This document shows, one piece after another, positions 13,531 through 34,071 of a stretch of 35,676 nucleotides of DNA. The position numbers were made by a program, and so were the translations under genes. Source of the DNA: Nitrosotalea sp. (GTDB lineage Archaea > Thermoproteota > Nitrososphaeria > Nitrososphaerales > Nitrosopumilaceae). The stretch spans positions 1 to 35,676 of the forward strand of contig JARCRW010000085.1 in the NCBI GenBank assembly GCA_029850515.1, read 5' to 3'. The notes under the pieces were generated by a model that searched no databases, was not told where the DNA came from, and saw only the letters and a list, made by a program, of their open reading frames with translations. Numbering within the stretch: the stretch's first letter is position 1; every line of letters starts with the position of its first letter.

Positions 13531-13588
13531 CAAATATCATTTTGACCAATTGACTATTCTTATATGCAATCAAGTGTATATGTTATTC

Positions 13589-13975
13589 ATGTCTCAATCT
13601 CCACAATATCTTGATAGAGTTCTTGAAAACATCATGCACACTGACAAGCAGATTAGATATGCAACAATCTTTGACAATGATGGAAATGAACTAAGTACTA
13701 AAATACGTGATGGAGTGGAGCCATTTCTAAATGATGTGGATACAAAAGAGACTCTACGCTATGCAGCCAATGCTTGGAAGATACGAAGGACTTTTGCGCC
13801 GAAAATTGGAAAAGGCAAGTATGTCTTGGCAGTCTATGATAATCTAAGACGGCTAACGATGCCTCTTGGAGATAAATATCTTATAATGGTGACATGGGGA
13901 ATCGATGGCGGCTCGTCTCAAATAATAGAACACTTGGAAAACATGTTTTCAGGCGATCCAACTAAAGATTGGTAA
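13589..13975 (+). CDS. Small Roadblock-like protein (thaumarchaeal family)
   Basis: From ATG 13589 (MSQSPQYLDRV) this is a 128-residue alpha/beta protein. The TATA-like CTTATATGC at 13559-13567 is about 27 nt upstream, so I prefer this start over the upstream 13550. It aligns with the proteins at 15699-16055 and 32906-33283 over RYATIFDNDGNEL, the (R)..G.EP(F/L)L loop, YDNLRRLTMPLG and a final beta strand. This pattern suggests a Roadblock/LC7-like fold. It probably acts as a regulatory or dimerisation module. It is convergent with the DUF4242 histidine kinase. Confidence 0.75.
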   Translation: MSQSPQYLDRVLENIMHTDKQIRYATIFDNDGNELSTKIRDGVEPFLNDVDTKETLRYAANAWKIRRTFAPKIGKGKYVLAVYDNLRRLTMPLGDKYLIMVTWGIDGGSSQIIEHLENMFSGDPTKDW

Positions 13976-13997: not shown

Positions 13998-14957
13998 TCA
14001 TTTTTTATCTACAGAAAGTAATTTTTCAATATGTTTTGGCAATGTGATGGTAAAAGTAGTGGGATTGTTTGAGGCATGTATTGTTCCATGGTGCTGTTCA
14101 ATTATGTTTTTGGAGCTCGGCAAGCCAAGGCCAGTTCCATGTTGTTTTGTGGTAAATAGCGGCTCAAATATCTTGGTCAGCAGTTCATCTGGAATTGGAG
14201 GACCTGAATTTTGAATCTTGATCTGAATTTTATCATTTGTTTTCTCAATAAACTTGATCACAATTTCACCACTATGTTTTTCATCAATAGATTGAATTGC
14301 ATTCATTATCAAATTGTAAAAGACGGATTCTAGTTTTGGGCCATCTAACTTTAACGTGATGTCGTTTTGAGGAAATGCTATTTTGATATTTTGGGGAATT
14401 TTAATTGGTACAATAGAATGAGTGATAGTATTTATCAGAGAATGGTCTTCTAAATGTAAAGATTGGGTTCTTGCGAAATTTAGTATGTCATTTATCATCA
14501 TGCTCATGCTAAAAATGGCACGATCTATCTTTGAGAGATGATCTAAAACTCCTGGACTGAATTGATCTTTGTACTTGATGCTTAACAAGTCTACCGAGTT
14601 TTTTATAACTGCCATTGGGTTTCTGAGGTCATGACTAATGTTTGAGCTCATTTGGCCCAAGGTCACAAGTTTTTCGATCTTTGTAGTTTTTTCTGTCTTG
14701 ACCTGATCTACCTCTGTGATAAAATCACACTTGAAACCTGCTGCCTCATGGTGTTTCCAGATGGATTCTTCATCTGGGGCATCTAGTACGCAGTAAATTC
14801 TGTCTTCTTTTTTATTAAAAAATAATTCTAGGTGGGTGACTCCAAATTTATCTGGAGGTGAATCCACTAGTTTTTCTAATTCTTCATGAGTCAATCCTTT
14901 TGAACTATGACCGTCAATAAATATGGGCATTCGATTATGAGATCGAAAATGTTTCAT
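13998..14957 (-). CDS. DUF4242 (metal-binding-like) sensor histidine kinase
   Basis: A 319-residue soluble kinase. Residues about 10-86 match DUF4242, the family of the nickel-binding SCO4226: MPIFIDGHSSKGLTHEEL, ..CVLDAPDEESIWKHHEAAG..., ending in a TEVD strand. It is joined to HisKA with phosphoacceptor H109 (SHDLRNP) and HATPase_c: N-box (YNLIMNAIQ), degenerate G1 (NSGPPIP), F-box (FEPLFTT) and G2 (GTGLGL). The fusion suggests metal or ligand sensing by the DUF4242 head. Leaderless ATG 14957 is supported by an A/T-rich box near 14978-14986. Signal and partner receiver are unknown. Confidence 0.9.
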   Translation of the reverse strand: MKHFRSHNRMPIFIDGHSSKGLTHEELEKLVDSPPDKFGVTHLELFFNKKEDRIYCVLDAPDEESIWKHHEAAGFKCDFITEVDQVKTEKTTKIEKLVTLGQMSSNISHDLRNPMAVIKNSVDLLSIKYKDQFSPGVLDHLSKIDRAIFSMSMMINDILNFARTQSLHLEDHSLINTITHSIVPIKIPQNIKIAFPQNDITLKLDGPKLESVFYNLIMNAIQSIDEKHSGEIVIKFIEKTNDKIQIKIQNSGPPIPDELLTKIFEPLFTTKQHGTGLGLPSSKNIIEQHHGTIHASNNPTTFTITLPKHIEKLLSVDKK

Positions 14958-15307
14958 AAAAACTTTTCACAAAATATGTAAAATTATGGAATTATTCAAA
15001 CGGCTATATATGTCATAAATAAAATTTTACATGATCGTTCTACTGATTATTTGACATTTGAATTATTACGGCATGTCACTGAATTTTTACTTGACCTTTT
15101 CCTAGAAATTTAGAGACTATGATGTATTGATAAGATAGTTTTTTCATATTGTGCAAGGAATAATCTTTGATTGTCATGTTCTGTTATTATCTGGATTTTT
15201 CATATGACATGTAATTTGAATATGCGATTGTTAATGACACATGCTTTCTGTAACGCGCATGTGATTATATCTTGTTCTTAAAATAGAACCAAGTGATGTA
15301 ATCCTGT
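14958..15307. other. Intergenic region with divergent promoters
   Basis: About 350 nt with no convincing gene or RNA. It holds A/T-rich promoter-like stretches near 14978 (for the kinase) and TTCTTAAAATAG near 15278-15289 (for the TPR gene at 15308). Nothing else structured was seen. Confidence 0.5.
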
Positions 15308-15709
15308 ATGGGGGATACCGATCATAATTCCTGGTATAATATAGGAAATGAAAATGCAAAGAACGATGATAACGAAGATGCACTAGTCGCTTATGACAAG
15401 GCCCTTGAGATAGACCCAAATCATGTGAGCGCTTGGAATAACAAAGGAATTATCCTATCTAGACTGAAGAGATTTGAAGAATCGATAATCTGTTATGACA
15501 AGGCAATTGAGATAAATTCAGAGTATGCAAATGCATGGTATAACAAAGCAAACGCATTACGAAATTTTGCCCAGTCATTAATTGACAAGGCAAATGACGA
15601 TCGTACAAATGCCCCAAAACTGGTAAATAGATCGATTGGATTGTTTGACTTTGCTGACAAGTGTTATGACAAGGGAGATATTCTCTCGGGAAAAAAACAT
15701 GAATCTTGA
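15308..15709 (+). CDS. Tetratricopeptide-repeat protein
   Basis: A 133-residue protein made of TPR units. Residues about 8-40 (NSWYNIGNENA..EDALVAYDKALEIDPN) and 42-75 (VSAWNNKGIILSRLKRFEESIICYDKAIEINSE) are canonical, and a degenerate third unit follows. It has no signal peptide. Its 3' end overlaps by 11 nt the next gene (start 15699), so the two are co-translated. The same TPR-then-Roadblock-like order occurs at 34020-32906. It is likely a scaffold for the neighbouring small protein. Confidence 0.9.
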   Translation: MGDTDHNSWYNIGNENAKNDDNEDALVAYDKALEIDPNHVSAWNNKGIILSRLKRFEESIICYDKAIEINSEYANAWYNKANALRNFAQSLIDKANDDRTNAPKLVNRSIGLFDFADKCYDKGDILSGKKHES

Positions 15710-16055
15710 AAAAATCTGCAATGAAATAATGCAATCTGATGCAGATATCACGCTGGTCGCAGTATCTTATAGGACAGAGTCGTATTTTAAAGAACGCCCG
15801 GGAGTCAAAAGTCTTCAAACAAAAGAGGATATGGAAAAATCATTAGCTGATGCATCATTGCGATGGGTAACTAGGAGATCTCAAAGGACACTCGGTGAAC
15901 CTCTTTATGCTATGGCAAAGTATGAGAAAGCAAAACGCATTACTACACCACTTGGCAGGTATGGTATAATCTTATGTGTTCTATTGCCAAATTCTGATGC
16001 TGAAAAGATTGCCACAAAATTGATCAAACTTGTAAAGAAATATCCTGACTCTTAA
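15699..16055 (+). CDS. Small Roadblock-like protein paired with TPR gene
   Basis: A 118-residue protein from ATG 15699 (MNLEKICNEIMQSD), overlapping the TPR gene by 11 nt. It aligns with the 13589 protein: helix, beta strand with R-T/N-D, a K-x-R-P/G-V loop, SLRWVTRRSQRTLG, YEKAKRITTPLGRYGIIL. It is alpha/beta with a C-terminal helix. Role unknown; likely a regulatory dimer acting with the TPR protein. An in-frame upstream ATG at 15636 is inside the TPR gene and less likely. Confidence 0.8.
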   Translation: MNLEKICNEIMQSDADITLVAVSYRTESYFKERPGVKSLQTKEDMEKSLADASLRWVTRRSQRTLGEPLYAMAKYEKAKRITTPLGRYGIILCVLLPNSDAEKIATKLIKLVKKYPDS

Positions 16056-30482: not shown

Positions 30483-30857
30483 TCATCTAGTTTTAGAAAT
30501 GGCATCTCTTATTTCACCTGATTTCTCAAAGATTGTCTTTCCTATTTCATCAACTTCTGCACCCGTTGGCTTTTTTCCGGAATGGACAACAAAATAATAT
30601 GTTTCAAACTTACCTATGATGGAACCGTGCGTATATCCGTAGACATACTCTGATTCGTTTGCTATCTGAAAAACTTCTTGAAATTGCGGAATACGAATAT
30701 TTTTAACAAGCCCTGGAATCTTGGATATTTCTTCTTCTATCATTGTATCCAGAATTTTTTTATCTTTTTTCTCTAATACCATATTTGAAAGACGATTGGG
30801 TTCAATAAAAGTCTGATACCGTAATTTTTTTTCAACTTGGCCTATCTCTTTTTTCAT
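30483..30857 (-). CDS. Thaumarchaeal paralogous family protein (small alpha/beta), copy A
   Basis: 124 residues. A C-terminal module (SEYVYGYTHGSIIGKFETYYFVVH, GEIRDAISKTR) aligns with the upstream neighbour (SDFIYGYLVGQMEGYIAGLIVGRHGKIPD...EEIRQIM), so they are tandem duplicates. No known function. The gene overlaps its upstream neighbour by 26 nt, indicating one operon with the HD hydrolase. Confidence 0.75.
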   Translation of the reverse strand: MKKEIGQVEKKLRYQTFIEPNRLSNMVLEKKDKKILDTMIEEEISKIPGLVKNIRIPQFQEVFQIANESEYVYGYTHGSIIGKFETYYFVVHSGKKPTGAEVDEIGKTIFEKSGEIRDAISKTR

Positions 30858-31236
30858 GTATTGTCATTATTTGTCTGATCTCTTCTGCTCTTTCCTCTAC
30901 CATCTTTCTAATCTCTTTACTCTCTTCCGAATCCGGTATCTTACCATGTCTTCCAACTATAAGACCTGCAATGTATCCCTCCATTTGACCAACCAGATAA
31001 CCGTATATGAAATCTGAACCGCTTTTGAATTTCCAAATCTTTTGCAAACGAGATTCACCTTTTTTCAATAGGGTCACATTGGGACACCAATTCTTGATGG
31101 CACTTTCTATCTCTTTTCTAATGTATGCACCTAGTACCATTGGATATCTTTCATAACTCAACTCTAAAAGGTTTATTGAGCTAATTTCAAGTTGTATTGT
31201 TGCACAGTCACTGAAAAACAATGGGTCGCAATCCAT
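30832..31236 (-). CDS. Thaumarchaeal paralogous family protein, copy B
   Basis: 134 residues; shares the YGY..G...G....V..G..P motif and EIR helix with copy A. The N-terminal extension is alignable to copy A, so I keep the start at 31236, which overlaps the HD gene by 29 nt. A shorter start at 31140 is possible. Function unknown. Middle gene of an overlapping three-gene operon. Confidence 0.7.
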   Translation of the reverse strand: MDCDPLFFSDCATIQLEISSINLLELSYERYPMVLGAYIRKEIESAIKNWCPNVTLLKKGESRLQKIWKFKSGSDFIYGYLVGQMEGYIAGLIVGRHGKIPDSEESKEIRKMVEERAEEIRQIMTIHEKRDRPS

Positions 31237-32905: not shown

Positions 32906-33283
32906 TTATGAAAAGTGTTTTACTATGGGTAAGCAACTATCTATTATTCTGAGTACTTCGGAACGAATCACTTTTTTATCAATTGAAACCCAGACAGTAT
33001 TTTTACCTACCGCAAAAGAGATGGTTTGCACTTTCTCTCTTTCCTCCCACATGAATTGTACATCGCCAAGCTGCCTGTTAAATTGTGATGCCATACGGGT
33101 CTTGATTGCAAGATGTGAAAACTGATCAGTCGTATTTTTTATGTTAAGCAGTGGTTCATGTCCGAATCTTCTCTCATATGCCACAATCTTTCCCTTGCTA
33201 TCTATTACGCCTGCAAATCTAACATACTGGCTAATTGCTCGTATTGCTTTTACTATTCCATGGGCATCTTTTTTATTCAACAT
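32906..33283 (-). CDS. Small Roadblock-like protein paired with TPR gene (second copy)
   Basis: 125 residues; aligns with 13589 and 15699 proteins (RFAGVIDSKGKIV; RFGHEPLLN; TVWVSIDKK). Follows the TPR gene on the same strand with a 113-nt gap, repeating the order seen at 15308-16055. TATA-like GTTATATAG (33303-33311) about 24 nt upstream. Likely a regulatory partner of the TPR protein; function unknown. Confidence 0.78.
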   Translation of the reverse strand: MLNKKDAHGIVKAIRAISQYVRFAGVIDSKGKIVAYERRFGHEPLLNIKNTTDQFSHLAIKTRMASQFNRQLGDVQFMWEEREKVQTISFAVGKNTVWVSIDKKVIRSEVLRIIDSCLPIVKHFS

Positions 33284-33396: not shown

Positions 33397-34020
33397 TCAT
33401 TGGGAAAAATTTTGCCTCATGCTCTTTTCAGCTTGTTGTCTTAATTGCATTGCAAAAAAATTATCTGGCTCATAATCTAACACCGTATCAAAATATGCAA
33501 TAGCCTCATCATATTTGCCAAGGTGGGAAAGAGACAAGCCTTTGTTTATTATGATGTTTACTTCCCTTGGCTTGGTTTCAAGAATCTTGTCAAAGCAATC
33601 TATTGCTTCTCTATACCTACCTATGTTGTCAAGTGAATACCCCTTCAATGACAGCGCCCCGGGATCATCGGGTGTCAACCTTAAAGCCTGATCAAAACAC
33701 CATAGTGCATCTTCATGTTTGTTTATGTTTGGATTTGAAAGACACAGTCCTTTGTTGATGAATGCACCAAAGTTATTTGGATCTATCTTCAAAGACTTGT
33801 CGTAATATTCAATTGCGTTATCAAATCTTAGTAGCATTTGGAATGATATTGCTTTATCATATAATAATTCGGCATTATTTGGGGATGTTTCTAAAGCCTT
33901 GTCTAGATGTAAAATTGCCTCTTCCTGATTTCCTTCTTTTTGTAACCTGAGCGCTTTTTTATGCAATGATTCCACAGAATCGTTTTTTGATGTAGTGTCA
34001 ACTCTACCCAATGATATCAT
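33397..34020 (-). CDS. Tetratricopeptide-repeat protein
   Basis: From ATG 34020 (MISLGRVD) it is 207 residues with about five TPR units (EEAILHLDKALETSPN, DNAIEYYDKSLKIDPN, EDALWCFDQALRLTPD, REAIDCFDKILETKPR, DEAIAYFDTVLDYEPD). Protein-protein scaffold. The upstream start at 34071 is less likely as it would run into the divergent gene. Partner likely the 32906 protein. Confidence 0.88.
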   Translation of the reverse strand: MISLGRVDTTSKNDSVESLHKKALRLQKEGNQEEAILHLDKALETSPNNAELLYDKAISFQMLLRFDNAIEYYDKSLKIDPNNFGAFINKGLCLSNPNINKHEDALWCFDQALRLTPDDPGALSLKGYSLDNIGRYREAIDCFDKILETKPREVNIIINKGLSLSHLGKYDEAIAYFDTVLDYEPDNFFAMQLRQQAEKSMRQNFSQ

Positions 34021-34055
34021 TACGTGATCCTTACTGATAAGGATTAGAATTGTGC

Positions 34056-34071
34056 ATGTACACTTGTACAT
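34056..34071. promoter_or_regulatory. Inverted repeat in divergent promoter
   Basis: ATGTACA-CT-TGTACAT: 7-bp perfect arms, 2-nt spacer. It lies between the divergent TPR gene (start 34020) and the membrane gene (start 34056), covering the latter's start codon, so a dimeric regulator could control both. Confidence 0.4.

Follow-up and report, generated by a model that had tools for sequence, protein, structure and literature searches.

The gene pair at 15308-16055 of the window (the whole 35,676-nt stretch of a Nitrosotalea sp. contig analyzed here) encodes a TPR protein (TPR1) followed by a small protein of predicted Roadblock fold (DUF1). The pair looks like a real operon, and it is kept together in one clade of ammonia-oxidizing archaea, not across the wider group. 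Our preferred interpretation, at a probability of about 0.5, is a clade-specific operon that couples a TPR adaptor to a Roadblock dimer and provides a GTPase-independent scaffold or signaling adaptor. The source genome of the window (G000) is 1.70 Mb in size and 99.6% complete.

Structure and conservation of the TPR1-DUF1 pair

TPR1 (15308-15709, plus strand) is 133 aa long and comprises two TPR repeats plus an additional C-terminal helical region. It matched Pfam TPR_1 in two stretches and exceeded the curated cut-off (E=3.2e-22, 77.8 bits), in agreement with its designation as a TPR gene in an earlier sequence-only reading of this DNA. DUF1 (118 aa) extends on the same strand from an ATG at 15699 to its stop at 16055, and the end of TPR1 and the start of DUF1 share 11 nt (15699-15709); the positions and overlap given by that reading were confirmed. 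Nei-Gojobori comparisons with seven relatives gave dN/dS values of 0.04-0.12 for TPR1 and 0.05-0.22 for DUF1, indicating that both open reading frames are real genes under purifying selection.

By general archaeal promoter spacing, an element at -36 to -22 would put transcription initiation on the TPR1 ATG or immediately beside it. Such a TATA-type, promoter-like element (TTGTTCTTAAAATAG) is located at 15272-15286 on the plus strand, 22-36 nt before this ATG. Alignment of 16 upstream regions showed invariant or near-invariant positions from -36 to -22 of the TPR1 start and little else in common, and no TATA-like match was seen within 60 nt upstream of DUF1 in any of the 16. This arrangement suggests that the two genes are co-transcribed, with one promoter just before TPR1 driving a bicistronic mRNA that has no leader or almost none. 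Because DUF1 starts inside the end of TPR1, both proteins would be produced jointly, probably through translational coupling.

DUF1 is present in 17 Nitrosotalea genomes including that of the window (61-100% identity), and TPR1 is directly upstream in the same direction in 16 of them. One MAG from another genus (G060) also carries the pair, for a total of 17 genomes, and the TPR1 orthologues upstream of DUF1 are 75-98% identical. Among the 17 tabulated junctions, the overlap measures 11 nt in ten cases (the window's among them), 4 nt in four, and 1 nt in two; the junction in Nitrosotalea sp. FS is not measurable because of N in the assembly. DUF1 is partly repeated across the N in this assembly (L036 / L051), which could reflect either tandem duplication or faulty assembly. 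The exception to the gene order is G013, the most diverged of the 17 Nitrosotalea genomes, where DUF1 is about 3 kb from TPR1 on the opposite strand; the family gene found about 120 bp downstream of TPR1 in G013 belongs to another subfamily.

Genes upstream of the pair vary (a histidine kinase, DUF3, and others) while the pair stays joined. The window has a third family member, DUF3, upstream of TPR1 (13550-13975, plus strand; PF20364 match at E=3.7e-5, short of the curated cut-off), and a histidine kinase gene between the two (13998-14957, minus strand). DUF3 adjoins the pair with no intervening histidine kinase in three genomes (L032, L036, and L055). The N-terminus of the kinase matches an SCO4226-like nickel-responsive domain (PF14026, 45 bits, above cut-off), and it is possibly a metal-sensing kinase. 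Downstream synteny is also conserved, so part of the TPR1-DUF1 linkage may reflect plain inheritance among close species.

Fold and family of the small proteins

AlphaFold models of DUF1 and of DUF2, a second small protein encoded in the window, had pLDDT values of 93 and 94, and both have the order a-b-b-a-b-b-b-a. When the models were compared to PDB by Foldseek, the best 50 matches for each were Roadblock/LC7 structures or complexes containing them, including Asgard Roadblocks, MglB, a Streptomyces Roadblock, Ragulator, and p14/MP1. The best match for DUF2 was MglB (1j3w, 1.7e-7), and Ragulator and p14/MP1 were also found for it. Over the best 50, query TM-score was 0.53-0.75 and probability was 1.00, with sequence identity of 4-17%. 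The "Roadblock-like" label attached earlier to these proteins therefore holds for both at the level of predicted structure.

Sequence profiles gave a fainter signal. Robl_LC7 (PF03259) had no match in the G000 genome even at E 10, and at 1e-4 it was absent from 13 Nitrosopumilaceae genomes but present in 11 other Thermoproteota. A single hhalign comparison against 12 Robl_LC7 sequences from other Thermoproteota gave a weak match (probability 68%, E 4.8e-5, 76 columns). On their models, DUF1 and DUF2 are Roadblock-fold proteins with a five-stranded sheet and are not PF03259 members; they are probably remote homologues of Roadblock/LC7.

Pfam gave no match for DUF1 itself, but two G000 paralogues resemble it: C62 (30% identity, E=8.5e-8) and DUF3 (29% identity, E=1.6e-5). 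Both match PF20364 (DUF6659) weakly and below cut-off, and DUF1 is tied to DUF6659 through its similarity to them. DUF2 (19.3 bits, E=0.0013) and DUF3 (24.3 bits) fall short of the PF20364 cut-off of 27, and three other G000 paralogues exceed it. Searches with a family profile, which includes DUF1 by construction, found the DUF6659-related family in all 61 sampled Nitrosopumilaceae genomes at 2-27 copies each; from PDB sequences the same profile retrieved only unrelated weak matches. Our literature search found no paper naming DUF6659. That these archaea carry Roadblock-like domains is an older idea, as NitrOD3 was reported earlier (PMC5847659); we found nothing beyond that paper on Nitrosotalea and Roadblock.

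The second pair and the reach of the association

TPR2 (33397-34071, minus strand) has four to five TPR repeats and a possible ATG at 34071 or 34020. Pfam matched it in four stretches that exceeded curated cut-offs (TPR_2 3e-30, 102 bits; TPR_1 5e-30). Its gene partner, DUF2 (32906-33283, minus strand), is the 125-aa predicted Roadblock-fold protein described above. TPR2 and DUF2 are separated by 113 bp and do not overlap, unlike TPR1 and DUF1. The TPR-then-family-member order thus does recur on the other strand (34071-32906), as had been noticed from the sequence. With about 10 TPR genes and 15 family genes in G000, random placement would yield two or more co-directional TPR-then-family neighbors with P about 0.0004-0.0008, and the two pairs exceed chance.

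TPR2 is directly upstream of DUF2 in 18 genomes, so that neither this pair nor the first (17 genomes) is confined to the source genome. In deeper-branching Nitrosotalea, either no TPR2 is found within 1.5 kb of DUF2, or a gene on the opposite strand intervenes and TPR2 is about 900 bp distant. Four deep Nitrosotalea loci (L120, L121, L125, and L128) have DUF2 convergent to and nearly touching another DUF6659 paralogue, placing two Roadblock-type genes tail to tail. Elsewhere in the window (30483-31236, minus strand) there are two adjoining small open reading frames with overlapping ends, which look like tandem paralogues and have no clear Pfam family; a close relative of the first is convergent to TPR1 in many deep Nitrosotalea. 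The source genome also has a J-domain and TPR gene convergent with another family paralogue (L010, G000:C24:42280-43220).

DUF1 and DUF2 gave no BLAST alignment with each other, and the tree placed them in separate well-supported clades belonging to different subfamilies, by which we reject duplication of a single module as the origin of the two pairs. On the tree, at least four changes are required to account for the TPR-paired members. The TPR-then-Roadblock neighborhood arose more than once in Nitrosotalea, as TPR1-DUF1, as TPR2-DUF2, and as TPR1 with another subfamily in G013. The proposal of a conserved two-protein module stands as clade-level conservation of each pair, but the two are not copies of one module.

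Both partners of the first pair are also found apart. TPR1 is present in 14 further Nitrosotalea genomes (54-63% identity) that lack a close DUF1 orthologue, and in the 13 deeper-branching genomes examined among these no family gene is adjacent to it. DUF1-like proteins in other genera (40-48% identity) had no TPR neighbor in 17 loci. TPR1 and DUF1-like proteins each persist alone, indicating that neither needs the other nearby. Three of 103 other family loci had a TPR neighbor, where two to three are estimated by chance, and these three (L129, L131, and L180, all in genus g6) represent one orthologous event; TPR genes show no sign of enrichment outside Nitrosotalea. A pairing general to Nitrososphaeria was thus not upheld, and TPR association as a property of the whole family is rejected on the 103 loci and the 17 DUF1-like loci. 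In genus g6, one or two DUF6659-type genes are directly followed by a gene for a 69-75-aa TPR protein, a separate association with the gene order reversed. Fused TPR-Roadblock genes were not found.

These distributions bear on the strongest alternative, in which TPR1 and DUF1 share only a transcript, are joined through common descent and regulation, and encode proteins that make no contact. Occurrence of each partner alone, the background rate of TPR neighbors outside Nitrosotalea, and the fact that DUF1 and DUF2 are not sister proteins are all consistent with it. It does not readily account for an overlapping, order-conserved junction in 17 genomes despite replaced upstream genes, or for the presence of two distinct TPR-then-Roadblock pairs in a single genome (P about 0.0007). 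We consider a shared transcript without contact a serious alternative, though the less probable one.

Possible roles and comparison with known systems

Roadblock proteins are dimers that act as platforms, often for small GTPases (PMC10933270; PMC4316618). Asgard Roadblocks form homodimers, and one has been proposed as a protein-protein scaffold (PMC10933270). DUF1 could accordingly be a GAP, GEF, or small-GTPase platform of MglB/Ragulator type with TPR1 as its docking factor, for which the presence of MglB and Ragulator among the best fold matches and the binding of MglA by the TPR protein Bd2492 in Bdellovibrio (PMC3983030) can be cited. However, a search of the 99.6% complete genome with the Roc model for Ras/MglA-type GTPases returned nothing over cut-off; the best three matches below it read as IF5B, a nucleotide-kinase-like protein, and an HflX-like GTPase. 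No small-GTPase gene was evident beside either TPR-family pair. The lack of a detected MglA/Ras-type GTPase makes an MglB-like GAP role unlikely unless the GTPase is very divergent, and we regard GTPase regulation as improbable. Least probable of all is that DUF1 is a two-component signaling accessory like NitrOD3, the Roadblock-related domain that Nitrososphaera carries in fusion with REC (PMC5847659), or like conservon CvnB beside a histidine kinase: a histidine kinase gene does lie near TPR1 here and in several relatives, but it is on the opposite strand and is missing between DUF3 and TPR1 in L032, L036, and L055, and REC or histidine kinase genes occur within 1.5-2 kb of 10 of 103 other family loci, close to the chance estimate, on which a general family link to two-component genes is rejected.

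For the operon of a TPR adaptor and a Roadblock dimer, the steps we propose are as follows. The Roadblock fold of DUF1 would make it a dimer, as characterized relatives form homo- or heterodimers that are used as binding platforms. TPR1 would be a small helical adaptor that is carried by this dimer or recruits it. Contact between the two proteins is suggested by gene order only, and the scaffold role is likewise inferred. More tentatively, ammonia-oxidizing archaea may have greatly expanded their set of Roadblock-fold proteins, to as many as 27 per genome; these would serve as stand-alone dimer scaffolds free of Ras-type GTPases and would repeatedly have recruited TPR operon partners in Nitrosotalea; we view this wider scenario as doubtful.

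The Roadblock-fold reading would give the uncharacterized, many-copy DUF6659-related family of Nitrosopumilaceae a likely dimeric state, and it offers a testable TPR partner in the Nitrosotalea clade. It also leads one to ask what Roadblock proteins would be doing in cells where no Ras-like GTPase is detectable.

Several known systems resemble parts of this arrangement. In Streptomyces conservons (CvnA-D), a Roadblock gene and a histidine kinase gene share a small conserved operon (PMC4316618), whereas here no GTPase was found and the nearby kinase gene is outside the operon. The MglA-Bd2492 system of Bdellovibrio has a TPR protein in a pathway that includes a Roadblock protein in relatives (PMC3983030); there the TPR protein binds the GTPase and MglB has been lost, while here there is no detected GTPase to bind. 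NitrOD3 is similar by description, as it is thaumarchaeal, about 120 aa long, and reported as Roadblock/LC7-related by HHpred (PMC5847659), but its three members are listed as NitrOD3-REC fusions in Nitrososphaera response regulators. Similarity to DUF6659 (PF20364) includes comparable length and matches from many paralogues, with DUF1 linked through DUF3 and C62; on the other hand, DUF1 itself lacks a match, and DUF2 and DUF3 are below the curated cut-off. Compared to Roadblock/LC7 proteins (MglB, Ragulator LAMTOR2/3, and Asgard RB proteins), DUF1 and DUF2 differ in their 4-17% identity, in the lack of a PF03259 match in the genome, and in having no cognate small GTPase found, but they share the predicted a-b-b-a-b-b-b-a order with a C-terminal helix. 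TPR and Roadblock proteins are themselves known kinds; what is new is the fold assignment for relatives of DUF6659 and the clade-specific operon.
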